A DNA stretch of 33,513 nucleotides, taken from assembly GCA_013289095.1 (NCBI GenBank), contig JABDAO010000024.1:1-33513 (forward strand), given 5' to 3'. This DNA is from Bacteroidota bacterium (lineage in GTDB: Bacteria > Bacteroidota > Bacteroidia > Palsa-965). The notes below the pieces were generated by a model that was given only the letters and a program-made list of their open reading frames with translations, was not told the origin of the DNA and did no database searches. The translations under genes and the position numbers were made by a program. Below are positions 9,192-21,798 of this stretch, one piece after another. Numbering within the stretch: the first letter of the stretch is position 1; every line of letters starts with the position of its first letter.

Positions 9192-9522
9192 GAATAATTG
9201 CGATATTTTTCTTAAAAGTAAAGATTATTTCCGCACCAGGGCAGAAGGGAGAACCGGCCTATTTACTTCTGATACATGGCACAAGTAAGCCTGAAGCAGA
9301 TGAATGGATAGTAACTGCCAGACAGACTGGAGCCAGACCTGAAACATAAACTACTGAACATTAATATATTAAACCTTGTTTCATCAACTGTACGAATGAT
9401 TCAGAAACACAGTCAACAAGGCTTTTCTCCCTCTGCAGACCCGTTCCGTTGAATTGTTTCAACAACTGCATTATGGAATTTTGATTTATCTTGCATCATT
9501 AGGCAAAACAACCTCCTCTGCT
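9192..9522. other. divergent intergenic region between asnB and the A2M gene
   Basis: These 331 bases separate two divergently transcribed genes, so both promoters should lie here. The plus-strand side has TATCTTGC at 9487-9494. The minus-strand side has AT-rich sequence with TACTTTTA-like matches at about 9210-9225, which are too weak to call. There is no ORF of note, tRNA or long hairpin. Confidence 0.5.
9487..9494 (+). promoter_or_regulatory. possible promoter -7 box TATCTTGC
   Basis: TATCTTGC differs from the TATCTTTG/A boxes seen elsewhere in the window by one missing T. It lies 28 bases upstream of ATG 9523. If it is used, transcription starts downstream of the TTG at 9454, which supports ATG 9523 as the true start of the alpha-2-macroglobulin gene. 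Confidence 0.4.
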
Positions 9523-12500
9523 ATGAATATCTTCAAAAAAGCCTTTCTTCTTTTCTTCTCCTTCTTGTTGATTCTGGCTATTGCCCTGGGGATCCATGCT
9601 GGCACCCATGCACGCACGCAGTATTCCTTCCCCAAAGGGAGTTCGTACCTCAAAGAATGGAAAAAAGTTGATTCGCTCGAAAACAAAGGGCTGACCCAAT
9701 CTGCCCTCGACGTGGTGATGGCCATTTATACCCGGTCTAAACAGGATAACAATGCGGCCCAAACGGTGAAAGCCATTTTGTATAAGATTAAACTCGAAGA
9801 ACAAATTCAGGAATATTCTACCGAAAAAGCCATCGCCTTTCTCAAAGATGAGACCGTTTCGGCCAAATTCCCCCTACAACCCCTACTTCACTCCATGCTC
9901 GCCGATATTTACTGGCGCTATTATACCAATAACCGCTACAAGTTTCACAATCGGACCCAGACTGTAAATTTCGACAATACCGACATTACCACCTGGGACC
10001 TCACCCACCTGGTGGATCAAAGCATCAAGGAGTATCAGCTCTCGCTGATTCAAACCGATAGTTTGAAAAAGATACCGCTGGAGCTCTATGATGATATCCT
10101 GGAGAAACATCCCGAATCACGAAAATTCCGACCTACGCTGTATGATTTTCTTGCCCACCGTGCCATCGATTTCTTTTCGAACGATGAACCAGATATTACC
10201 CGTCCGGCCTATCGTTTCGATATCGACAACCCGGCCTGTCTCTCCGATGCGGCAACGTTCAGCACCTTACCCCTTGTTACGAAAGACTCGCTCTCGATGA
10301 AATACTATGCCATCAAGGACCTGCAACAGCTCCTTGCCTTTCATCAGACCGACAAAGACCCCACAGCCCGTGTTGATGCCGATCTGAAACGTCTGGCATT
10401 CGTAAAAACGCATGGGGTCTTTGAAAACAAAGACAGCATCTATCTCAATAGCCTCAACGTGCTCAAAGCCGAACTCAAACAATCCAATCCTGCTTCTCCC
10501 TGCATCAGCGAAGTCATGCACGAAATAGCAACCTGGCATTATCTCCTGGGGCAGAACTATGTTCCGCTCACCTCAGAGGCCGACAAATGGGAAAAGAAAA
10601 CAGCCATTGCCATCTGTCAGGAAGCCATCGCTGCCTATCCCGGTTCCTTTGGAGCACAGCTCTGTGCCGCACTTCAGACAAACATCCGCGAAAAAAGCAT
10701 GAGCCTGGATGTTGAAAAAGCGAATGCCCCCGGAAAACCCTTCCGTGGTTTGTTTACCTACAAAAACATGAACAAGGCCTATGTCCGTATCGTACATCTG
10801 GATCTCAACCATCCGAAGGACCTGGATCTGAACGGACGGTATTTTGGAGAAGACCTCTTGAAACAATGCCTGAAAATGACTCCCGTAAAAGAGTTTGAAA
10901 TCACACTGATTGACGATGGTGATTTCAGCATGCACAGCGCCGAAATCAAATTCCCGGATCTTCCCTTGGGGCACTATCTTATTATCACCGGTTCCGACAA
11001 ATCCTTTAGTTTAAAGAACCAGGGCATTGCCTATACCCAGGAATGGATTTCGGACCTCAGTTATGAAGAACGCCGTTTGACCGACGGGGCCATTGAATTC
11101 TATGTACAAAACCGTCAGACCGGCGAACCCATCAAGGGCGCCAAAGCACAACTCTGGGAAGGACGCGACAACCACTCCTATCAGCAATCTGGCTGGGTAA
11201 GGACTGATGTTTTCACCACCGATGAGAACGGGTATTTCAAGATCCCGCCCGCCAAAGAGTACAGAAGGTTTATCCTCGAGCTCATCAACGGCACAGACCG
11301 ATTCTATATCGAAAATGGTTTCTATCAGTATCAAGGTTACAAGCCCCAGGTAATCAAAGCCCCAAAAACCTTTTTCTTTACCGACCGCGAAATATACCGT
11401 CCAGGTCAAACCGTGTTCTTTAAAGGTATTTGTCTGCAATCAGACGGCGATCACAACGAGATACTCACCCACCGCCCGCTGACTGTTACCTTTTACGATG
11501 CCAATTCACAAAAACAATCCAGTCTTGATCTTACCACCAACGATTTTGGCAGCGTAAGCGGCTCTTTCACTGTCCCTCAAGGCGCAATGAACGGACAGAT
11601 GTACATCGCCGATGGACATGGTACAAAATATTTTTCGGTCGAAGAATACAAACGCCCAAAATTCGAAGTCAGTGTTAAACCGGTAAACGGGGTCTACAGA
11701 CCCGATGATGATATTACCGTGCACGGCACTGCAAAAGCCTACTCGGGAGCAAACATAGACGGGGCACAGGTGAAATACCGGGTGGTGCGCAATGCTACAT
11801 TCCCTTACTGGTATTACTATTGGAGCGGGTACTATCCTTCCTCGCCACAGACCGAAATCACAAACGGGTTCACCACCACCAACGACACAGGAGGATATGT
11901 CATCCATTTCAAAGCCCTGCCCGACCGCAGCATCGGCAAAGACAAATCGCCTACCTATACCTACACCGTCTTCGCCGATGTGACCGATCTCAACGGCGAG
12001 ACACACAGCAGCTCGGGCTATGTTTCGGTAGGCTATATTACCATGAACCTGAGCATCAACATCAGCGGCTTGGTGAACAAGGAAGAAAAACAAAAATTCC
12101 CGGTCTACAGCGCAAATCTCAACGGACAATTCGAACCTGCCAAAGGACGTATAGAGATCTATAAACTAAAGGATCCGGGCCGCGCTTTCCGCAAACGACA
12201 GTGGGACCGTCCCGACCGTTTCTTACTTACAAAAGATGAATTCTACTCCTCCTTTCCCAACGATGCCTACAGCGACGAAGACAATATGTACAAATGGGAA
12301 CACGGTGAAAAAGTTTTGGAAACAACATTCGAAAACACCAGCTCCAACAGCGGCACGGTGCTCTCGCCCCGGATGAACAACCATACCGATACGCTCTTTC
12401 TCAAAAACATCAGCCACTGGTCTCAGGGTTATTATGTGCTCGAAGCCCATTCAACCGACCGTTTTGGGGGGGATGTCAAAGACCTGAGCTATTTTACCAT

Positions 12501-15500
12501 CTATTCCGAAAAAGAAAAAGAGACGGCGGTTTTCCAAACTGATGTTTTCGAACAATTAAAAAACAGCGGAGAGCCTGGAGAGTCGGCCAAAATACTCATC
12601 GGAAGCAAGGAGGATATCAAAGTGCTCTTCGAGACCGAGTACCGCAACGAACCCATGAAGAAACAATGGATCGAGCTGAACCATGAACAAAAGATACTTG
12701 AGCTCCCCATCGAAGAAAAAGACCGGGGCGGTTTTGCCTATCATTTTCTGTTCGTGAAAAACAACCGACCCTATCATCACGATGGAACCGTTACGGTGCC
12801 CTGGAGCAACAAACAGCTCGACATCAGCTTCGAGACTTTTAGGAACAAACTCGAACCTGGAACTGCCGAACAATGGAAACTAAAGATCAAAGGCCCCAAA
12901 GGCGAAAAGGTTGCCGCTGAGATGCTGGCCACCTTGTATGATGCTTCCCTGGATGCCTTCCGCCCCAATGCCTGGGATTTTAGCATCTACACTTATTTTT
13001 ATTCCAACCTCTACTGGTCGTCGAACGAGACATTCGGCATGACAAACTCCCAGCTCTATGCCGATTTCTGGAACCCTTATCTGACCGTTCCAACACGGTA
13101 TTACGAAACCCTGAACTGGTTTGGCTACTCTTTCTACAACTACTGGCCCACGAATATGGCCTATAAAAGCGCTGCCATGGGCGGAGCCCGTCATTACGAA
13201 GCGCCTGCAAGCGCCGGCGCAGCACCTGCTCCCGACGAACAGCCAGACCTTGACGGGAACATGGACAAGGCCGGAGAAAAGTTTACCGAGAAAAAAGCAG
13301 ATACCGGAAAGGAGTTAAAGTCAAAAAATAACGAACACACAGACCGGGAGGAAACAACCGCAGATGATCTGACCACAGCAACAGCTACAAACGGGAAAGG
13401 CGAAACCACCAGAGACAGCCGGGGTGCCAACAATCCCGGCACAGTAAAAGCCCGCACCAATTTTTCGGAAACAGCCTTTTTCTTCCCCACCCTCAGCACC
13501 GATGAGAACGGCGATGTGGTCGTAAAATTCACCGTCCCCGAAGCCCTTACGCGCTGGAAGATGATGGGGTTTGCACATACCAGGGACCTGATGTATGGCA
13601 GCATCGGAAATACACTCGTAACACAAAAAGACCTGATGGTGGTGCCCGATGCCCCGCGTTTCTTCCGCGAAGGCGATGACATGAGCTTCACCGCCAAGAT
13701 CACCAGTATGGCCGATTCAAAACTGGACGGTACGGCACAACTCCTCTTTTTCGATGCCCTGAGCATGAAACCCATAGACGATAAACTCCTGCTCAAACAA
13801 AACGGGGTCCAGGATTTCTCCGTCGCAAAAGGCGCCAGTACCGTGTTGAAATGGGACATCCACATCCCCGAAGGATATGGGGCCATCAGCTACCGGGTGG
13901 TTGCAAAATCGGGTTCATTCTCCGATGGAGAAGAAATGGTTGTTCCGGTACTGACCAACCGCATGCTCGTTACCGAAAGCATGCCGTTACCCATACGCAG
14001 CCGTCAGACCAAGGTATTTACGTTCGAAAAATTCATGAACCAAAACAACCACAGCCCCACCCTCCGTAACCACAAACTCACACTTGAGTTTACCGCCAAC
14101 CCTGCCTGGTATGCGGTGCAGGCCCTGCCCTACCTCATGGAATACCCCTATGAGTGCGCAGAACAAACCTTCAGCCGTTTTTATGCCAACAGCATTGCTT
14201 CGCATATTGCCAACTCCAGCCCAAAGATCAAGGCGGTGTTCGATTCATGGAAAAGCCAAAGCCCCGATGCCTTGCTGTCTAACCTGCAAAAAAACCAGGA
14301 ACTCAAATCGCTCATGCTCGAAGAAACACCCTGGGTGTTGGATGCAAAAGATGAAAGCGAACGAAAAAAACGCGTGGCCTTGTTGTTCGACCTTACAAAA
14401 ATGAGCAACGAACTCGACGGCGCTCTCCGAAAACTCCAGAAGATGCAACTTGGAGACGGAGCCTGGCCCTGGTTTGACGGTATGCCCGAAGACCGTTACA
14501 TCACCCAATACATCGTCACCGGCATGGGCCATCTCGACCACCTCGGCGTTTCGAATATCCACTCCGATGCAATGACCTGGAACATGGTGCGTAACGGGGT
14601 GAAATACCTCGATAACAAGATAACCGAAGATTACAACTGGATCCTGGAGCATGACCGAGAACATCTGGATCGCGATCATTTGTATGACGAACAGATACAG
14701 TACCTCTATGCACGCAGTTATTTTAAAGATATACCTGTCGACCGTGGTAATCTGGCCGCCTTTAACTATTACAAAGCCCAGGCCCAGAAATACTGGCTCA
14801 ACAAAGGACGTTATATGGACGGGATGATTGCCCTGGCCCTTTTCCGGAATGATGATACGAAAACCCCAAACGACATCCTCAAATCGCTGAAAGAAACCTC
14901 CATCTCGAGCGAAGAAATGGGTATGTACTGGAAAGAAAACTACGACGGCTTTTATTGGTATCAGGCTCCCATCGAAGCCCAGGCCCTGCTTATTGAAGCC
15001 TTTGACGAAGTGGCACACGATCCGAAATCGGTTGATGACCTCAAAGTATGGCTTCTGAAATCCAAACAGACACAAGACTGGAAAACCACCAAGGCCACCA
15101 GCGAAGCCTGTTACGCACTTCTGCTGCGCGGAACCGACTGGCTCAGCACCGAAAGCAATATAGACATCAAAATGGGCGAACTGGTCGTCGACCCAAAGAA
15201 AATGGAAGATGTCAAGGTAGAAGCAGGCACCGGTTATTTCAAAAAGAGCTGGAGCGGGGATGAGATCAAACCCGAGATGGGCAAGGTTACTGTTTCAAAA
15301 AAAGACGAAGGGGTTAGCTGGGGGGCCGTATACTGGCAGTATTTCGAGCAACTCGATAAAATCACGCCTCACGACACCCCATTGAAGTTGAACAAGAAAC
15401 TCTTTGTAGAACACAACACGGCATCAGGACCCGTGATCGAACCCCTTACGGCCGCTTCCAAACTTAAACCAGGCGACAAGATTAAAGTGAGGATCGAACT

Positions 15501-15801
15501 AAAGGCAGACCGCGATATGCAGTATGTACACATGAAAGACATGCGTGCTTCCTGTTTCGAACCTACCAACGTCATTTCACAATACAAATACCACGACGGC
15601 CTGGGCTATTATGAAAGCACCCGGGATGCCAGCACCAACTTTTTCTTCAGCTGGCTGCCCAAAGGCAATTATGTGTTTGAATATCCGCTGATGGTAACCC
15701 ATAACGGTAACTTCTCCAACGGCATTACCAGCATACAGTGTATGTATGCTCCTGAGTTTGCAAGCCATTCTGAAGGGGTACGGGTGAAGGTAGGAGAATA
15801 A
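9523..15801 (+). CDS. alpha-2-macroglobulin family protein (2,092 residues)
   Basis: This very large envelope protein belongs to the bacterial alpha-2-macroglobulin (A2M) family, whose members trap proteases through a bait region and an internal thioester. A signal peptide (MNIFKKAFLLFFSFLLILAI...) begins at ATG 9523; the frame extends to a TTG at 9454, but that adds only an unlikely pre-sequence. The order is: helical/TPR-like N-terminal part (to about residue 400); a carboxypeptidase-regulatory-like segment (QTGEPIKGAKAQLWEG) near 520; an MG2 domain starting FFFTDREIYRPGQTVFFKG at 617; a charged, low-complexity linker at 1226-1306; the A2M domain with TRWKMMGFAHT near 1343; and the thioester motif Cys1545-Ala-Glu-Gln1548 in YPYECAEQ, followed by a toroid-like helical part with DGAWPWFDG. 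No lipobox Cys is present. No PBP1C gene is adjacent, unlike the proteobacterial yfhM/pbpC pairing. Confidence 0.9.
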   Translation: MNIFKKAFLLFFSFLLILAIALGIHAGTHARTQYSFPKGSSYLKEWKKVDSLENKGLTQSALDVVMAIYTRSKQDNNAAQTVKAILYKIKLEEQIQEYSTEKAIAFLKDETVSAKFPLQPLLHSMLADIYWRYYTNNRYKFHNRTQTVNFDNTDITTWDLTHLVDQSIKEYQLSLIQTDSLKKIPLELYDDILEKHPESRKFRPTLYDFLAHRAIDFFSNDEPDITRPAYRFDIDNPACLSDAATFSTLPLVTKDSLSMKYYAIKDLQQLLAFHQTDKDPTARVDADLKRLAFVKTHGVFENKDSIYLNSLNVLKAELKQSNPASPCISEVMHEIATWHYLLGQNYVPLTSEADKWEKKTAIAICQEAIAAYPGSFGAQLCAALQTNIREKSMSLDVEKANAPGKPFRGLFTYKNMNKAYVRIVHLDLNHPKDLDLNGRYFGEDLLKQCLKMTPVKEFEITLIDDGDFSMHSAEIKFPDLPLGHYLIITGSDKSFSLKNQGIAYTQEWISDLSYEERRLTDGAIEFYVQNRQTGEPIKGAKAQLWEGRDNHSYQQSGWVRTDVFTTDENGYFKIPPAKEYRRFILELINGTDRFYIENGFYQYQGYKPQVIKAPKTFFFTDREIYRPGQTVFFKGICLQSDGDHNEILTHRPLTVTFYDANSQKQSSLDLTTNDFGSVSGSFTVPQGAMNGQMYIADGHGTKYFSVEEYKRPKFEVSVKPVNGVYRPDDDITVHGTAKAYSGANIDGAQVKYRVVRNATFPYWYYYWSGYYPSSPQTEITNGFTTTNDTGGYVIHFKALPDRSIGKDKSPTYTYTVFADVTDLNGETHSSSGYVSVGYITMNLSINISGLVNKEEKQKFPVYSANLNGQFEPAKGRIEIYKLKDPGRAFRKRQWDRPDRFLLTKDEFYSSFPNDAYSDEDNMYKWEHGEKVLETTFENTSSNSGTVLSPRMNNHTDTLFLKNISHWSQGYYVLEAHSTDRFGGDVKDLSYFTIYSEKEKETAVFQTDVFEQLKNSGEPGESAKILIGSKEDIKVLFETEYRNEPMKKQWIELNHEQKILELPIEEKDRGGFAYHFLFVKNNRPYHHDGTVTVPWSNKQLDISFETFRNKLEPGTAEQWKLKIKGPKGEKVAAEMLATLYDASLDAFRPNAWDFSIYTYFYSNLYWSSNETFGMTNSQLYADFWNPYLTVPTRYYETLNWFGYSFYNYWPTNMAYKSAAMGGARHYEAPASAGAAPAPDEQPDLDGNMDKAGEKFTEKKADTGKELKSKNNEHTDREETTADDLTTATATNGKGETTRDSRGANNPGTVKARTNFSETAFFFPTLSTDENGDVVVKFTVPEALTRWKMMGFAHTRDLMYGSIGNTLVTQKDLMVVPDAPRFFREGDDMSFTAKITSMADSKLDGTAQLLFFDALSMKPIDDKLLLKQNGVQDFSVAKGASTVLKWDIHIPEGYGAISYRVVAKSGSFSDGEEMVVPVLTNRMLVTESMPLPIRSRQTKVFTFEKFMNQNNHSPTLRNHKLTLEFTANPAWYAVQALPYLMEYPYECAEQTFSRFYANSIASHIANSSPKIKAVFDSWKSQSPDALLSNLQKNQELKSLMLEETPWVLDAKDESERKKRVALLFDLTKMSNELDGALRKLQKMQLGDGAWPWFDGMPEDRYITQYIVTGMGHLDHLGVSNIHSDAMTWNMVRNGVKYLDNKITEDYNWILEHDREHLDRDHLYDEQIQYLYARSYFKDIPVDRGNLAAFNYYKAQAQKYWLNKGRYMDGMIALALFRNDDTKTPNDILKSLKETSISSEEMGMYWKENYDGFYWYQAPIEAQALLIEAFDEVAHDPKSVDDLKVWLLKSKQTQDWKTTKATSEACYALLLRGTDWLSTESNIDIKMGELVVDPKKMEDVKVEAGTGYFKKSWSGDEIKPEMGKVTVSKKDEGVSWGAVYWQYFEQLDKITPHDTPLKLNKKLFVEHNTASGPVIEPLTAASKLKPGDKIKVRIELKADRDMQYVHMKDMRASCFEPTNVISQYKYHDGLGYYESTRDASTNFFFSWLPKGNYVFEYPLMVTHNGNFSNGITSIQCMYAPEFASHSEGVRVKVGE

Positions 15802-15952: not shown

Positions 15953-16576
15953 ATGAAACGCTTCTTTTCCTCCAACTCATCCTGTTCTGTTGCCTCCGTT
16001 TGTTTCTGTTCGCTTGTAAGAAGGTGCGTACTGTTCCTCGTCAGCATCTTGATCCTGGCTTCTTGTGCAACAAAAAAAGAACAGGAACCAACCGCTAAGG
16101 TAGAAGACTATGATGCGGTGATGAAAAAGATAATCCGCACCGATGAGGGCCTTTTCAGAGGAACAAACCTGGGTATGCCGCTCGACAAGGTAAAATCAAT
16201 CGAAAAAGACGAAAAACCCGTTGAAGAAGAAGACAACTACCTCAGCTACGATTTCGCTTTTAAAGACACCCTCCAGGGCAATTACTATTACAGTTTTGAA
16301 AACGGGTTGGATGAGATAGGCGTAGATGTATACCGCGAAAAATCAAAAGACTGTTCCTGGCTCCTGGCCGAACTCACCACCTATTTCACCAAACGTTACG
16401 GCGCTCCCGCATCAGAAGAAAAGCTGCTCATCTGGCATGTGCAAAACCAGGGCAAGGAAGGCGCCCAGATTACGCTTGGAGATGAAAGCGCTGATTATGG
16501 CTATGGCAAACTTACACTTACCCTGTTCCCCTTTCAGACCGAAGTAGACCCTACAGAAAAAGAAGCAAAGCCATAA
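15953..16576 (+). CDS. small putative lipoprotein of unknown function
   Basis: This is a 207-residue protein not assigned to a known family. Its N-terminus has a basic, Ser/Cys-rich lead (residues 1-25), a hydrophobic core VLFLVSILI, and a lipobox LASC with Cys38, so it is probably lipid-anchored. The mature part begins with a charged ATKKEQEPTAKVED linker. It contains the segment GLFRGTNLGMPLDKVKSIE, a layout seen in small periplasmic proteins in which a short helix pair follows the lipid anchor. The rest is mixed alpha/beta with many acidic residues. The lead before the hydrophobic core is long for a lipoprotein, so the true start could be further downstream, though no better ATG exists. 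It follows the A2M gene after a strong hairpin; a functional link is possible but unproven. Confidence 0.68.
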   Translation: MKRFFSSNSSCSVASVCFCSLVRRCVLFLVSILILASCATKKEQEPTAKVEDYDAVMKKIIRTDEGLFRGTNLGMPLDKVKSIEKDEKPVEEEDNYLSYDFAFKDTLQGNYYYSFENGLDEIGVDVYREKSKDCSWLLAELTTYFTKRYGAPASEEKLLIWHVQNQGKEGAQITLGDESADYGYGKLTLTLFPFQTEVDPTEKEAKP

Positions 16577-16781
16577 CGCCTGTAAAGGTGTTGGATGAGC
16601 GGAGGAGCGTACACCGTTAAAACAGTTTAGAGCATATCATCTTCTGGCCAACGGTTCTTACGTTTAAAACAGCAGGCTATGATCCAACCAGATAACATAG
16701 CCCACGTATACTTCCCAATTCCCTCCCTTGAATAAAGGAAACAAAACACCTCCATCGAATCGAAAATGGACTTCCATTATA

Positions 16782-16845
16782 TTTGCCACGACCTTCAGCT
16801 TGTGGAGTCAAGAAAACCAATCGCTCCGGCTTTAGCCAAAGCCGG
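16782..16845 (+). repeat. REP/BIME-like two-hairpin repeat, copy 1
   Basis: This copy contains TTGCCACGACCTTCAG, a degenerate hairpin half (CCACGACC...TTGTGG, 16786-16805), then a perfect hairpin CCGGCTTT-AGCC-AAAGCCGG (16826-16845). The same two blocks occur in inverted orientation 35 bases further on, so it is called as one half of a paired element. Confidence 0.6.
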
Positions 16846-16879
16846 ATGCCACTTCCCAGATTCACCCATAGAGCAAGGC

Positions 16880-16948
16880 TTGGTTTTGGCTAAAGCCACT
16901 GATATGAAGGAATGACTGTCTTCCACGACCTGAAGGTCGTGGCAACCA
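16880..16948 (-). repeat. REP/BIME-like two-hairpin repeat, copy 2 (inverted)
   Basis: Read on the minus strand this gives TTGCCACGACCTTCAGG, a perfect hairpin CCACGACCT-GA-AGGTCGTGG (16923-16942), and then GGCTTTAGCCAAA (about 16886-16898), the same blocks in the same order as copy 1. The spacer between the blocks differs between the copies, while the hairpins are kept. This is the pattern of palindromic repeats conserved for structure. Confidence 0.6.
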
Positions 16949-17277
16949 AAATTGAAAACCGATCCTAAACATAGACACGGGGCGGCTTAATGAATGGATG
17001 TGGGAGTTTATTCTTTTATCCCAGGTTGTGCATCAGATGGCTTGTGCGCTAATGCACAGTGTGTTAGCATTTGCGCATGGTAAATGGGTTATCCCGCAGA
17101 TTCGTTGTGCTGCTGGCCTTTTGAGCGTGAATGCCTGCTTCTAATGCATAATGCGGGTTTATCATTTCGTGCAGCACACAAAAAGTGGTGAAGTACCGGT
17201 TAAACAACTAACCAGAAACAACCATCACCGAGCCTCTTTTTTTCATTTCATATATAGTTTTGCATTTCAAAAACTTC

Positions 17278-17285
17278 TATATTTG
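17278..17285 (+). promoter_or_regulatory. promoter -7 box TATATTTG ahead of the repeat cassette
   Basis: TATATTTG fits TAnnTTTG exactly. A TTTG lies at 17259-17262, but the gap of 15 bases is shorter than the usual 19-21. Transcription from here would give a leader of about 650 bases carrying the hairpins and the 21-bp array before ATG 17945. Confidence 0.35.
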
Positions 17286-17316
17286 CTCCGTCATAAGACC
17301 TCCTCCAGGAGGGATG

Positions 17317-17342
17317 CTTTTACAAATAATGACCTGTAAAAG
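17317..17342. repeat. 8-bp-arm inverted repeat CTTTTACA / TGTAAAAG
   Basis: This is a perfect inverted repeat with arms at 17317-17324 and 17335-17342 and a 10-base loop, about 30 bases downstream of the TATATTTG box. It has no T-run after it on the plus strand. It could be an operator or a leader hairpin. Confidence 0.35.
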
Positions 17343-17610
17343 TCAAAAATCTGAAAATACGAATACGGAGAGTAACGTACGAATATTCGAAACGTATTGG
17401 CAAGACCGGCTGAGCAAAATGAGAAGTTGAACTGCGATGTATGAAGACAGGAAGAGCCCCACAGACACTCCCGCCTGCCTTTTGATAAACCGGGCTTTAA
17501 AACCAGAAATGATTTTTATTGCGTTGCAAACTGCCAGGGGCGCCAATCCCGGCATCGGCCTCGCAAGCAGTTTTCCGGGAGATATACTGGAATAAGCAGA
17601 AGGCATCCAC

Positions 17611-18789: not shown

Positions 18790-21700
18790 TCATTCCACAT
18801 AATACATATCATCAAAAGGCGAATTGATAGGAGCCCCCATATTCACCGGTTTAGACCAGGAGGCCGTATTTTCATCCCAGGTGCTTTTGTAGATATCATA
18901 ACCACCCATAGAATCGAAGCCTTTGGAAGAAAAATAAAGGGTCTTGCCATCGGCCGAGAGGATGGGGTATTCTTCATCAAACTCGGTATTGATGTCCACC
19001 AGGTTTTGGGGCTGAAGGTTCCATTTCCCATCGCCTATCTGGTTGAGCCGGTAGATGTCTTTCCCGTTCAACCCGTTTTCACCATAACTGGAAAAGAGGA
19101 TGGTGTTTTTATCGGCCGAAAGAAACAAGACCGAGCGGTAGTTTTTTTGTTTGTCAATCGTCGACCGCAGGTCGTCAGGGGTTATCAGCAGCCTTCCGCC
19201 CGATTCGAGTTGGGTAAACGCCAGGTGCATGGTTTCCTTCGATACTTCACGCCGTTCATAAACCTCCAGTACAACGGGGTTGTTCACAAGCTTGATTCCG
19301 TTGCGGCAGTATTCTATTTGTTTGTCGACCTCCAGTTTTTCGATGTCGTGCGAGGGGGCATGGAGTTTGAATTTTTCAAAGGCCTTGATGGCCCTGCTGA
19401 ACCGGTAGCTGAACTGATTGGCCCGGCCCAGATAATAATACACATCGGGGGGAACCGCTTTGGAGGTGGAAGCAAATTCAAGATCGCTCAGACAATCGGT
19501 TTTGTCGTGGCTTGTCAGATACAACCCCATGCCCAGGTAATAGGAACTGATGGGGTCGAGGTCTATTTCTATCTCCAGGCGTTGATACGCATCAACACAT
19601 TCCTGGTACTTTCCATCCTCATACAATGCTTTTGCCTTTTTCATGACCTCCTCATCGGCAGCGGTTTGTTCGGCGGTGCGTTTTAGTTTCCCGGTGTTAA
19701 AGAAATGAACAGAGGCCGATTCTTTTTTGGGTTTGTCCTTGCGTTTGCTCAGGCCCTGTTCCAATGCATCGTTCACCAGGGTAGCTTTTCGCGCTTCTTC
19801 TTCGGTAAAATAATTATTAAGGGTAAGAATATCAAACGTGCCTTCCTTGCGGAGGACAATCTCCTGGCGGAGTACAAAATCAGATGTTTTTTCGGGAAGG
19901 ATAAAGTCTTTTTTTATGGGGGGATATCCGTCGGCTTCAACCACCAGGTGATACGTTGTTCCTGCCACCAGGGCCATGAGGTAGTTTCCGTTCTCAGCGT
20001 TGGTCTTGTAGACCCCGGCTATTTCCTCGGTTTCGGCATTGTAAACGGTGAGGATCCCGTTCCGGTTGTCGGTCGAGTCGAGTGTCGAAAAACATCCTTT
20101 GATGATGTAATACGAAAGCGCACGCTGATGCCGTCTGATCTGGATGTATTCAAATTTTCCGTTTTTACGGTTTGAGCAGTACGAAGCCGCTTCACCATCG
20201 TCTACACCTTCGGAGGCGGGGACGTACAAGATATCGTCGTAGGGTGAGTTGATGGGATAGCCCATATTTACGGGTTTAGACCAAAGGCTGAGTGTATCCT
20301 TGCGGGTGCATTTAAAAATGTCATAACCACCCATGCTGTCGTGACCTTTGGATGAAAAATAAAGCGTTTTTCCATCCTTGCTGATATAGGGATAATCCTC
20401 GTCGTAAGGGGTATTGATCTCCGCCCCGAGCGAAACGCTTTGTCCTTTCACCCCGGAAGCAGAGATGATATTGTAGTACAGGTCTTTGCTATTCTGTTCT
20501 TTCATCCCATAGCTTACCTGAATAATCTGGTTGCGGCCCCATTTGCACATGAGCAGTTTGGCCTTTTGTTTTTTGTCGACCGGCGAATTGAAAAAATCGG
20601 TCTTGTAAAGCAAGCGCTCGCTGATCAGGTCGGGGTTATAATAGCTTAAAAGATCTTCATCCTGCATGGGCACCCGCTTCAGTACTTCGATATTGTCTTG
20701 CTCCGACATGAGGGTATTCCCACTGTTGCAGTTGGCCTGGAGCTCGGCCACCTGGTTTTTCAGAACTTCGTCGGGGCGGGCTTTTTTCCTGAACCAGGCA
20801 ATAGCATTCAGGGCATCGTTGAACATATACGAGAGGTGGTAGGATTTTGCCAGATAGAGAAACACATCATAGGGCACTTTGGGCGAATGCGAAGCCAGCT
20901 CCAGATAAGGAATGGCCCTGGCCTTGTTCTGGGAAGAATGAAAAAGACAAACCCCGTAGTAATAATTCAGGAACGGATCGGCTTGATCGTTCTTGACCAG
21001 GTATGCATACAGGGGCAAGGCGGTGGCATAATCTGCACTTTTGAATGCCCGCATTGCTTCAACCGGTTTCTTCTTTTCCTCCTCTACCTGACGTTTCACC
21101 AATTCATCGATGGTCAGGTAGGCTTTCCCTACAACACCTGCCTTGTTCGGAGCTGGTATGGGCGATGGGTAATCGGCATCACCGGCCAAGGTATCGGGAG
21201 CAGCCTTGAGAAAGAATACACGCTCGTTCTCGTCCGAAAAATAGTTGCGTATGATCAACACTGATTTCCGTTGCTCGTTCTTCCGGAGTTTTATTTCCTG
21301 GCGGCATACCTCATAATCTATACGGAGCGGGACCTCTACCTGCTGTTGCGCCATTTCATATCCATCTGCTTCGACTTTAAAGATGTAATGTACGTTTGGC
21401 ACCAGGATCAGCAAATAGTTACCGGTCAAGGGGTTGGTGTTGTATACCCCCACCCGGTTATCGCTTGAGGAACTATAGATGCCAATCTTCTCTTCGTTGG
21501 AGGCATTATAGACTACTATCTTCGCCCGTTTCAACGCGGGGTTATCCGCAATTTCGATATGCCCCCGGATGAGGATCAGCCCGGGCCGTTCATTGGTGGA
21601 AATGATTTTATAGACTTCGGTCTTACCTGCCTCACTCGCTCGGTCGGATACGAAATAGGAAAATTTTTGCCGTTTAAGAGAAATGCTTTGATCGGCGGCA

Positions 21701-21798
21701 GATTCAGGAATACTGGCTCCGGTTTGTGCCTCAACCCCAAAGCTGAAGAATAACAAGAGGATGCAACAGTAACTATATTTTAGAAAGTAGTACTTCAT
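18790..21798 (-). CDS. secreted TPR/PD40 protein with a tandemly duplicated architecture
   Basis: This 1,002-residue protein has a type I signal peptide (MKYYFLKYSYCCILLLFFSFGVEAQ). It consists of two similar modules of about 450-500 residues. Each runs: a carboxypeptidase-regulatory-like beta domain (first with AKIVVYNASNEEKIGIY, second with GILTVYNAETEEIAGVYKT, each followed by a HxxFKVEADGY or HLVVEADGY segment), a TPR-like helical part (DPFLNYYYGVCLF; DPISSYYLGMGLYL), and PD40 beta-propeller repeats (DGKTLYFSSKGHDSMGGYDI near 475; DGKTLYFSSKGFDSMGGYDI near 950). Both modules end with WSKPVNMGxPINSPxDD. TPR plus PD40 plus a beta domain recalls PorE-type type IX secretion or gliding-associated envelope proteins, but the C-terminal OmpA peptidoglycan-binding domain of those proteins is absent. 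A specific function is not assignable. Confidence 0.83.
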   Translation of the reverse strand: MKYYFLKYSYCCILLLFFSFGVEAQTGASIPESAADQSISLKRQKFSYFVSDRASEAGKTEVYKIISTNERPGLILIRGHIEIADNPALKRAKIVVYNASNEEKIGIYSSSSDNRVGVYNTNPLTGNYLLILVPNVHYIFKVEADGYEMAQQQVEVPLRIDYEVCRQEIKLRKNEQRKSVLIIRNYFSDENERVFFLKAAPDTLAGDADYPSPIPAPNKAGVVGKAYLTIDELVKRQVEEEKKKPVEAMRAFKSADYATALPLYAYLVKNDQADPFLNYYYGVCLFHSSQNKARAIPYLELASHSPKVPYDVFLYLAKSYHLSYMFNDALNAIAWFRKKARPDEVLKNQVAELQANCNSGNTLMSEQDNIEVLKRVPMQDEDLLSYYNPDLISERLLYKTDFFNSPVDKKQKAKLLMCKWGRNQIIQVSYGMKEQNSKDLYYNIISASGVKGQSVSLGAEINTPYDEDYPYISKDGKTLYFSSKGHDSMGGYDIFKCTRKDTLSLWSKPVNMGYPINSPYDDILYVPASEGVDDGEAASYCSNRKNGKFEYIQIRRHQRALSYYIIKGCFSTLDSTDNRNGILTVYNAETEEIAGVYKTNAENGNYLMALVAGTTYHLVVEADGYPPIKKDFILPEKTSDFVLRQEIVLRKEGTFDILTLNNYFTEEEARKATLVNDALEQGLSKRKDKPKKESASVHFFNTGKLKRTAEQTAADEEVMKKAKALYEDGKYQECVDAYQRLEIEIDLDPISSYYLGMGLYLTSHDKTDCLSDLEFASTSKAVPPDVYYYLGRANQFSYRFSRAIKAFEKFKLHAPSHDIEKLEVDKQIEYCRNGIKLVNNPVVLEVYERREVSKETMHLAFTQLESGGRLLITPDDLRSTIDKQKNYRSVLFLSADKNTILFSSYGENGLNGKDIYRLNQIGDGKWNLQPQNLVDINTEFDEEYPILSADGKTLYFSSKGFDSMGGYDIYKSTWDENTASWSKPVNMGAPINSPFDDMYYVE

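Follow-up and report, generated by a model that had tools for sequence, protein, structure and literature searches.

Repetitive extragenic palindromes (REPs), which pair into bacterial interspersed mosaic elements (BIMEs) or into REPINs (defined by Bertels and Rainey, 2011, PMC3116915), and their REP-associated tyrosine transposases (RAYTs) are among the described systems closest to the element analyzed here. The element lies at positions 16770-16965 of a 33,513-nucleotide stretch of DNA from a Bacteroidota bacterium (assembly GCA_013289095.1, contig JABDAO010000024.1), which in its full length is called the window. It is intergenic, following a 207-aa open reading frame (ORF) at 15953-16576, and is probably a small, gene-less mobile DNA element composed of four mirror-image hairpins, which match the ends of a little-studied family of single-strand transposases. 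As far as the passages cited here and below describe them, REP, BIME and REPIN systems with their RAYTs (PMC2817692; PMC3116915) resemble the system presented here in their inverted palindrome pairs, in a low-copy gene that has the same palindromes on either side and is accompanied by many gene-less copies, in a tetranucleotide (head) directly 5' of the hairpin foot, and in the presence of repeats in genomes without a detected gene. In contrast, the enzyme here belongs to the IS200 side rather than to class 2, the head is often NTWG and hardly ever GT[AG]G, and each end consists of two hairpins, outer and inner, with near-fixed distance and polarity. The gammaproteobacterial REPs with apparent TTYA loops in Nunvar 2010 (PMC2817692) have a GTAG or GTGG head, and RAYTs meeting the criteria of that study are reported in it from gammaproteobacteria only.

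On the enzyme side, the closest described family is TnpA_Y1 subclass 1.2 (Quentin 2018, PMC6006769), which the cited text presents without REPs and typical terminal hairpins, and which agrees with the genes studied here in length (~148 aa), the Y---Q--HH motif, low copy number and presence in Bacteroidetes. IS200/IS605 elements (subclass 1.1) likewise combine an HUH/Y1 transposase of <160 aa with hairpins near the ends, whereas here the double-hairpin ends are symmetric (inverted) and gene-less copies outnumber genes in several genomes. TIRYT/TIRtron elements (Di Nocera 2013, PMC3733652) also carry a tyrosine transposase gene between terminal inverted repeats (TIRs), which are dispersed as well and in some cases double-palindromic; by their text description they differ in RAYT-type motifs and, in part, a GGGGWSAS motif, the text gives no Bacteroidetes example, and the figure of double-palindromic TIRs could hold closer cases. 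The CGTC-tagged REPs of the same study (PMC3733652) are similar in their 8-9 bp stem and 4-5 nt loop and occur in Bacteroidetes and Chlorobi, among others, with no known transposase, but CGTC is not the head seen at the hairpins here. RepRanger (2025, PMC12306157) counted palindromes in Flavobacterium species, the cited part making no mention of a transposase. No description of such subclass 1.2 ends was found in the open-access literature searched.

We consider the feature, with a probability of roughly 80%, to be a non-autonomous, gene-less derivative of a small subclass 1.2 Y1 transposon, comparable to a miniature inverted-repeat transposable element (MITE) or a BIME; the parentage of the window copy is suggested by its layout and sequence. 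Its four hairpins span 16786-16942 in the order outer-inner and inner-outer on opposite strands, which bears out the original prediction, made from the letters of the window, of two hairpin blocks repeated in the same order on opposite strands. The two blocks are more plausibly an outer and an inner hairpin that together make up a single transposon end than a chance pairing of two REPs. The prediction of a dispersed, inverted two-hairpin repeat is supported, and in form and lifestyle the repeat is REP/BIME-like. The REP/BIME trait of dispersed, inverted-pair palindromes is present, with the extragenic position checked for the window only. The features are as follows, contigs of the host assembly (2.95 Mb, 167 contigs, 62% complete; the window is contig C24) being given by number:

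16770-16785, plus strand: left flank, inverted-repeat-like, shared with the copy on contig C79; the 4-nt head TTTG lies directly 5' of the hairpin foot.
16786-16805, plus strand: left outer hairpin, CCACGACC-TTCA-GCTTGTGG, loop at 16794-16797, imperfect, with a degenerate 3' arm.
16828-16837, plus strand: left inner hairpin, GGC-TTTA-GCC, its loop 37 nt past the outer loop.
16838-16887, no strand: core, the position of the Y1 ORF in related elements; the inner loops are 60 nt apart.
16888-16897, minus strand: right inner hairpin, GGC-TAAA-GCC (GGC-TTTA-GCC on the minus strand).
16923-16942, minus strand: right outer hairpin, CCACGACC-TGAA-GGTCGTGG, a perfect 8-bp stem with the minus-strand loop TTCA.
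16943-16965, minus strand: right flank, with the minus-strand head GTTG directly 5' of the hairpin foot.

Read inwards from outside on either strand, both hairpins of each end have a TTYA loop, and the successive loop-to-loop distances are 37, 60 and 40 nt. The outer hairpins are 83% complementary to each other over 35-nt arms, and the inner hairpins 94% over 16-nt arms. With up to three mismatches, the outer pattern had 2 matches in the window compared to a mean of 0.00 in 100 shuffles, while the inner core alone stayed within chance (3 matches at up to one mismatch, 1.88 expected). As single-stranded DNA, 16770-16965 folds at -39.2 kcal/mol (z -5.88), and none of 200 shuffles was as good. 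A longer palindrome, TCCGGCTTT-AGCC-AAAGCCGGA at 16825-16846, overlaps the left inner hairpin and would compete with the GGC-TTTA-GCC fold.

Copies of the repeat are present elsewhere in the host genome, as the genome-wide count proposed with the original prediction revealed: GGCTTTAGCCNAA gave 26 matches and its reversed control 2. A full-length relative of the window element occurs at C79:6446-6639 (71% identity), and partial or single outer-hairpin copies were identified on C110, on C54 (a tandem pair) and at one edge of C114. The commoner sister element has the same order and another outer stem (CCCCGCGC-TTTA, GGGC-TTTA, GGGC-TAAA, CCCCGCGC-TAAA). Profile PF01797 matched no Y1 transposase on the window contig and three genes in the rest of the assembly (C42, C13 and C9), in agreement with the expectation that the source lies elsewhere in the genome. 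On C13 (L041, G000:C13:14940-15490), two full CCCCGCGC/GGGC elements and the left half of a third are arranged in tandem with a period of 247-248 nt, approximately 200 nt before the Y1 transposase ORF. The C42 ORF is flanked, in the same order, by CCCACGAT-TTYA and AAACCGT-TTYA hairpins. The C9 gene is RAYT-like (191 aa, over the NF047646 cut-off), and a different double palindrome, AGGCGAAGCC-TCCA-GGCTTCGCC followed by TGTAGCGT..ACGCTACA, occurs three times upstream of it (L051, G000:C9:41600-42800). A RAYT gene flanked by the window's hairpins, for which the original prediction proposed to look, is not what C9 provides, its hairpins being different. The observation that would have spoken against the original prediction, a pair unique in the genome with no RAYT-like gene, was made in neither part, since the repeat has genomic copies and C9 carries such a gene. 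Within the genus, window-type DNA amounted to one outer hairpin in G001 and none in G002 and G003.

Related elements with and without a gene were collected by an outer-hairpin scan of 84,980 species genomes, the pattern of which fixed G at head position -1 on one strand and allowed four of the possible loops. The scan yielded at least 114 stretches, by title mostly from Bacteroidota and Ignavibacteria. Complete outer-inner-inner-outer elements numbered 22 among the 114 stretches listed, 10 with a Y1 ORF and 12 without. The ORF-bearing elements, the head-to-head layout of which was read in the first 80 stretches, run head-outer-inner-ATG...stop-inner-outer-head and measure 523-559 nt from loop to loop, compared to 94-181 nt for the ORF-less ones and 137 nt for the window element. 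They enclose a Y1 transposase of ~140 aa that is 43-48% identical to the C13 protein. Throughout the 114 listed stretches the spacing is regular, with the same polarity in 101/108 outer/inner neighbours within 60 nt and an outer-inner distance of 34-41 nt in 99/106 pairs. The heads were ATTG, ATAG, GTTG or TTTG at 42 of the 44 ends of the 22 elements, a count biased by the G that the scan pattern fixes at -1.

The link between the two forms is provided by a gene remnant in the ORF-less element L133. There, the 14 codons before the end of the right inner hairpin spell EFLKLHGFSNKSFG-stop, the peptide YNEFLKLHGFSNK aligning with the C-terminus of the transposase at 77% over 13 residues (E 1.1e-6); the interior of L133 also starts in a gene-like manner by eye (ATG-TCA-TAC-ACT-AAA). 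Weaker traces of both gene ends were detected in L077 (best E 6e-4) and a 6-residue match to the gene in L112, and the remaining ORF-less elements had no gene remnant at E 0.05. Judged from such sequences, the gene-less forms derive from gene-bearing ones. Autonomous ends kept around a deleted interior, as expected of MITEs, characterize 12 of the 22 elements; the window element has the ends, and its core showed no Y1 ORF remnant at E 0.05.

Two further arrangements were observed among the scanned loci. At L082 (6592-7611), in a metagenome-assembled genome (MAG), four right-end units of inner and outer hairpin follow each other in tandem every 328 nt. At L063, L068, L103 and other JAPLDO loci (a Lake Pavin Bacteroidetes MAG), many outer palindromes match both strands and break the TTYA loop rule, several of them adjoining GGC-TRAA-GCC or GGC-TTYA-GCC inner hairpins.

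As judged by motif and length, the enzyme enclosed by matching hairpins is not a RAYT but an IS200-like TnpA_Y1 of subclass 1.2. The Y---Q--HH motif was found in 86 of 90 surveyed proteins (140-159 aa) and DHuH in 63. The genes between window-type hairpins have Y---Q--HH in place of the class 2 RAYT pattern (Y---NP, NF047646), so that the proposal of a Y1-type source stands with respect to a Y1 transposase and falls with respect to a RAYT. Three proteins tested scored best with NF033573, two of them over the cut-off and the third, the host's own C13 protein, falling slightly short of it (52.9 vs 55 bits). There are also profile matches to solved IS608-type transposases, the IS608 enzyme itself and others, some of them those of ISDra2. 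The subclass 1.2 genes are of low copy number, 1 to 10 per matching genome and mostly 1-4 in the counts listed.

We further assessed the DNA beside these genes. The subclass 1.2 profile matched 166 of 395 genomes of the phylum at E<=1e-15, and 90 genes were taken, 30 from retrieved loci and 60 picked by hand with a preference for high scores and one per genome; lower-scoring and unlisted profile matches lie outside this set. A free loop census (stem >=7, loop 3-6, no loop requirement) found 171 hairpins within 200 nt of the genes, of which 134 had the loop TTTA, TTCA, TAAA or TGAA; at 300-700 nt the TTYA/TRAA share was 51/84. Dinucleotide shuffles of the flanks gave on average 15 hairpins, 0.1 of them with a TTYA/TRAA loop. 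In contrast, none of the hairpins beside 30 genes of the phylum similar to the RAYT-like gene on C9 had such a loop (0/42 near the genes and 0/16 at 300-700 nt). Paired hairpins were then sought with TTYA/TRAA loops by construction and 170 nt examined upstream: 30 of the 90 genes had TTYA upstream together with TRAA downstream, 7 had the opposite orientation, and reversed-letter loops gave none. For 22 of the 30 genes, the upstream and downstream stems differed at no more than 2 of 8 bases, compared to a mean of 2.9 and a maximum of 9 in 2000 permutations. At least one TTYA-type hairpin stood on the expected side of 60/90 genes, which, together with the gene-less derivatives, sets them apart from the published account of subclass 1.2 (PMC6006769).

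The head was examined at 96 TTYA hairpins of the 90-gene set, which were not chosen by head pattern but were limited to TTYA loops. NTWG occurred at 50 of them (background 3.5%) and at 2/96 opposite feet, with T at -3 in 79 and G at -1 in 56; GT[AG]G, sought 0-2 nt 5' of the foot, occurred at only 2, and the window heads are TTTG and GTTG. The automatic REP descriptor of Quentin 2018 required GTAG or GTGG (PMC6006769) and would thus miss the 94 of 96 hairpins that have neither. The inner hairpin follows the protein tree (midpoint-rooted), the GGC type being present in 43/56 of one half and 3/34 of the other, where AACC occurs in 7 of 34; in 10 of the 90 genes the right inner hairpin GGC-TRAA-GCC contains the stop codon. 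Genomes with at least 12 copies of the inner motif GGCTTYAGCCNAA carried the gene in 33 of 41 cases compared to 133 of 354 for the rest (Fisher p 1.6e-7, only indicative because genomes are not independent; the counts were read by eye and the threshold was set after they had been seen). No genome reached 12 with the reversed motif, again by eye. Seven of the eight motif-rich genomes without the gene belong to one genus, g65, in which copies persist although no gene was detected. G039 of this genus, with 80 inner motifs, no subclass 1.2 match and a genome listed as 100% complete, may represent an orphan repeat population.

Across g65 species, related short elements occupy conserved sites in some genomes and are missing from others. 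Synteny with sister species extends over most of a 19.5-kb region of G176, and a 141-nt element at L332 17580-17720 is absent from G023, G066 and G294 and appears to be shared by G373. The site 1 element is absent from G113, G055 and G385, with unrelated DNA there in G039 and G023 and G109 not placeable. The site 2 element is absent from G055, G113 and G373, and other DNA is present in G294, G318 and G385, that of G294 including one of the two palindromic units; at site 3, six of nine genomes could not be placed. At an orthologous gene site, the left end is retained in G055, where a short tail replaces the gene; the gene is kept in G066 and G176, and the hairpin is missing from G109.

Known Y1 enzymes bind hairpins on one strand, contacting the loop or irregularities of the stem, and their cleavage site is chosen by a tetranucleotide at the hairpin foot. 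As far as the cited text goes, a Marinomonas RAYT recognizes a REP with the loop TTTA, in which the first T and last A are important, and cleavage was severely affected when the reverse-complemented loop of a Stenotrophomonas REP was put in (PMC8266576). The T..A loop, the single orientation and the NTWG head observed here correspond to these determinants, on the basis of which we propose that binding is strand-specific, that the cut falls near the head and that mobilization occurs in trans. The transposase would read loop and head on single-stranded DNA in a strand-specific manner, and the head at the hairpin foot would choose the cleavage site, with the cut near the head. Gene-less copies may be mobilized in trans by the subclass 1.2 transposase, analogous to the way in which RAYTs are thought to move BIMEs. 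The window copy itself may or may not be active at present, having one degenerate arm and no cognate gene found nearby. We lean slightly towards a broader proposal, namely that subclass 1.2 enzymes constitute a second, independent REP-like world with its own strand-specific double-hairpin code (NTWG, TTYA, near-fixed distance, polarity). In this code the enzyme clade would determine the inner hairpin, the outer stem would diversify by lineage, and gene-less copies would be spread through Bacteroidota and neighbouring phyla as REPs are through gammaproteobacteria. A family catalogued without typical ends gains ends, and these make it testable, with a hairpin substrate that is defined, a guide that is predicted and gene-less derivatives that occur naturally. 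The results suggest that the REP/BIME way of life, in which a single low-copy Y1 gene is accompanied by many gene-less palindromes, is found on the IS200 side too, and offer a possible explanation for many of the TTYA palindromes in genomes of Bacteroidota and Ignavibacteria.

Several observations weigh against the derivation of the window element from a subclass 1.2 transposon. A transposase flanked by the CCACGACC stem was found neither in the 62%-complete own genome nor among 12 genomes of the family, the own genes on C13 and C42 bearing other stems. Both outer loops of the C79 copy are TGCA and not TTYA. No empty site was found for the window copy, as synteny breaks in G001, where the orthologue of the upstream gene is present and the downstream neighbour is different. 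The TTYA/TRAA loops of the 22 elements were given by construction, being the search criterion, and a clear gene remnant occurs in only 1 of 13 ORF-less elements (the 12 and the window). Among the surveyed genes, 30/90 lacked both a TTYA hairpin upstream and a TRAA hairpin downstream; these include the own C13 gene, whose tandem end units lie beyond the 170 nt examined upstream. Furthermore, 46/96 hairpins are without the NTWG head, and 27/90 proteins are without DHuH by the pattern used, many of them having EHuH. Finally, the 141-nt elements of g65 consist of one outer-inner unit between 13-nt inverted repeats and not of four hairpins, and so are relatives of the window element rather than the same form.

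These g65 elements also furnish the case for a different origin, which we regard as very improbable, in which the element is a MITE of a DDE transposon, the TTYA hairpins are incidental and the outer inverted repeats are the functional ends. Among the matches listed for G176, all 141 positions were matched at eight places, with the inverted ends TTATTRCTCCGGC / GCCGGAGTAATAA, and some CCACGACC elements have, by eye, inverted flanks ~28 nt outside the hairpin. However, no consistent target duplication was seen by eye at the 141-nt copies listed in G176, a Y1 gene lies between the same hairpins, the stems of which are matched on both sides, and the clear remnant inside a short form comes from that gene.

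Spread of a canonical REP/BIME through a class 2 RAYT, as originally predicted, is very improbable. It would account for the inverted hairpin pair, the dispersed copies and the RAYT-like gene on C9, and TTYA loops are not exclusive to subclass 1.2, being present in some gammaproteobacterial RAYT REPs, a point that also counts against our own assignment. We rejected a RAYT origin because loops, heads and enzyme type all differ: the RAYT-like genes of the phylum stand beside hairpins devoid of TTYA/TRAA loops, the GT[AG]G head is nearly absent here, and the enclosed genes are IS200-like. A bidirectional transcription terminator or host-conserved RNA structure, which the strong fold, the intergenic position and one terminator-like site on the minus strand might suggest, is the least credible reading and can be set aside, as terminator-like sites are at chance level (1 found, 1.0 expected; the ground on which the terminator was rejected), no T run follows the outer hairpins, no Rfam family exceeds its threshold in 16400-17600, and related elements vary between sister species.

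Plasmids and phages were also rejected as the source of the polymorphic copies: only two Bacteroidota megaplasmids exceeded 38% identity among the 30 plasmid entries listed of 80 records, 8 phage records were at 25-31% identity, and the Persicobacter and Bernardetia loci had no clear TTYA double end. Elsewhere in the window, a 2115-aa ORF at 9454-15801 is without any NCBIfam match, and 18790-21798 on the minus strand encodes a protein with PD40 repeats and sub-threshold matches to the PorE and CHU_0125 OmpA-like families.
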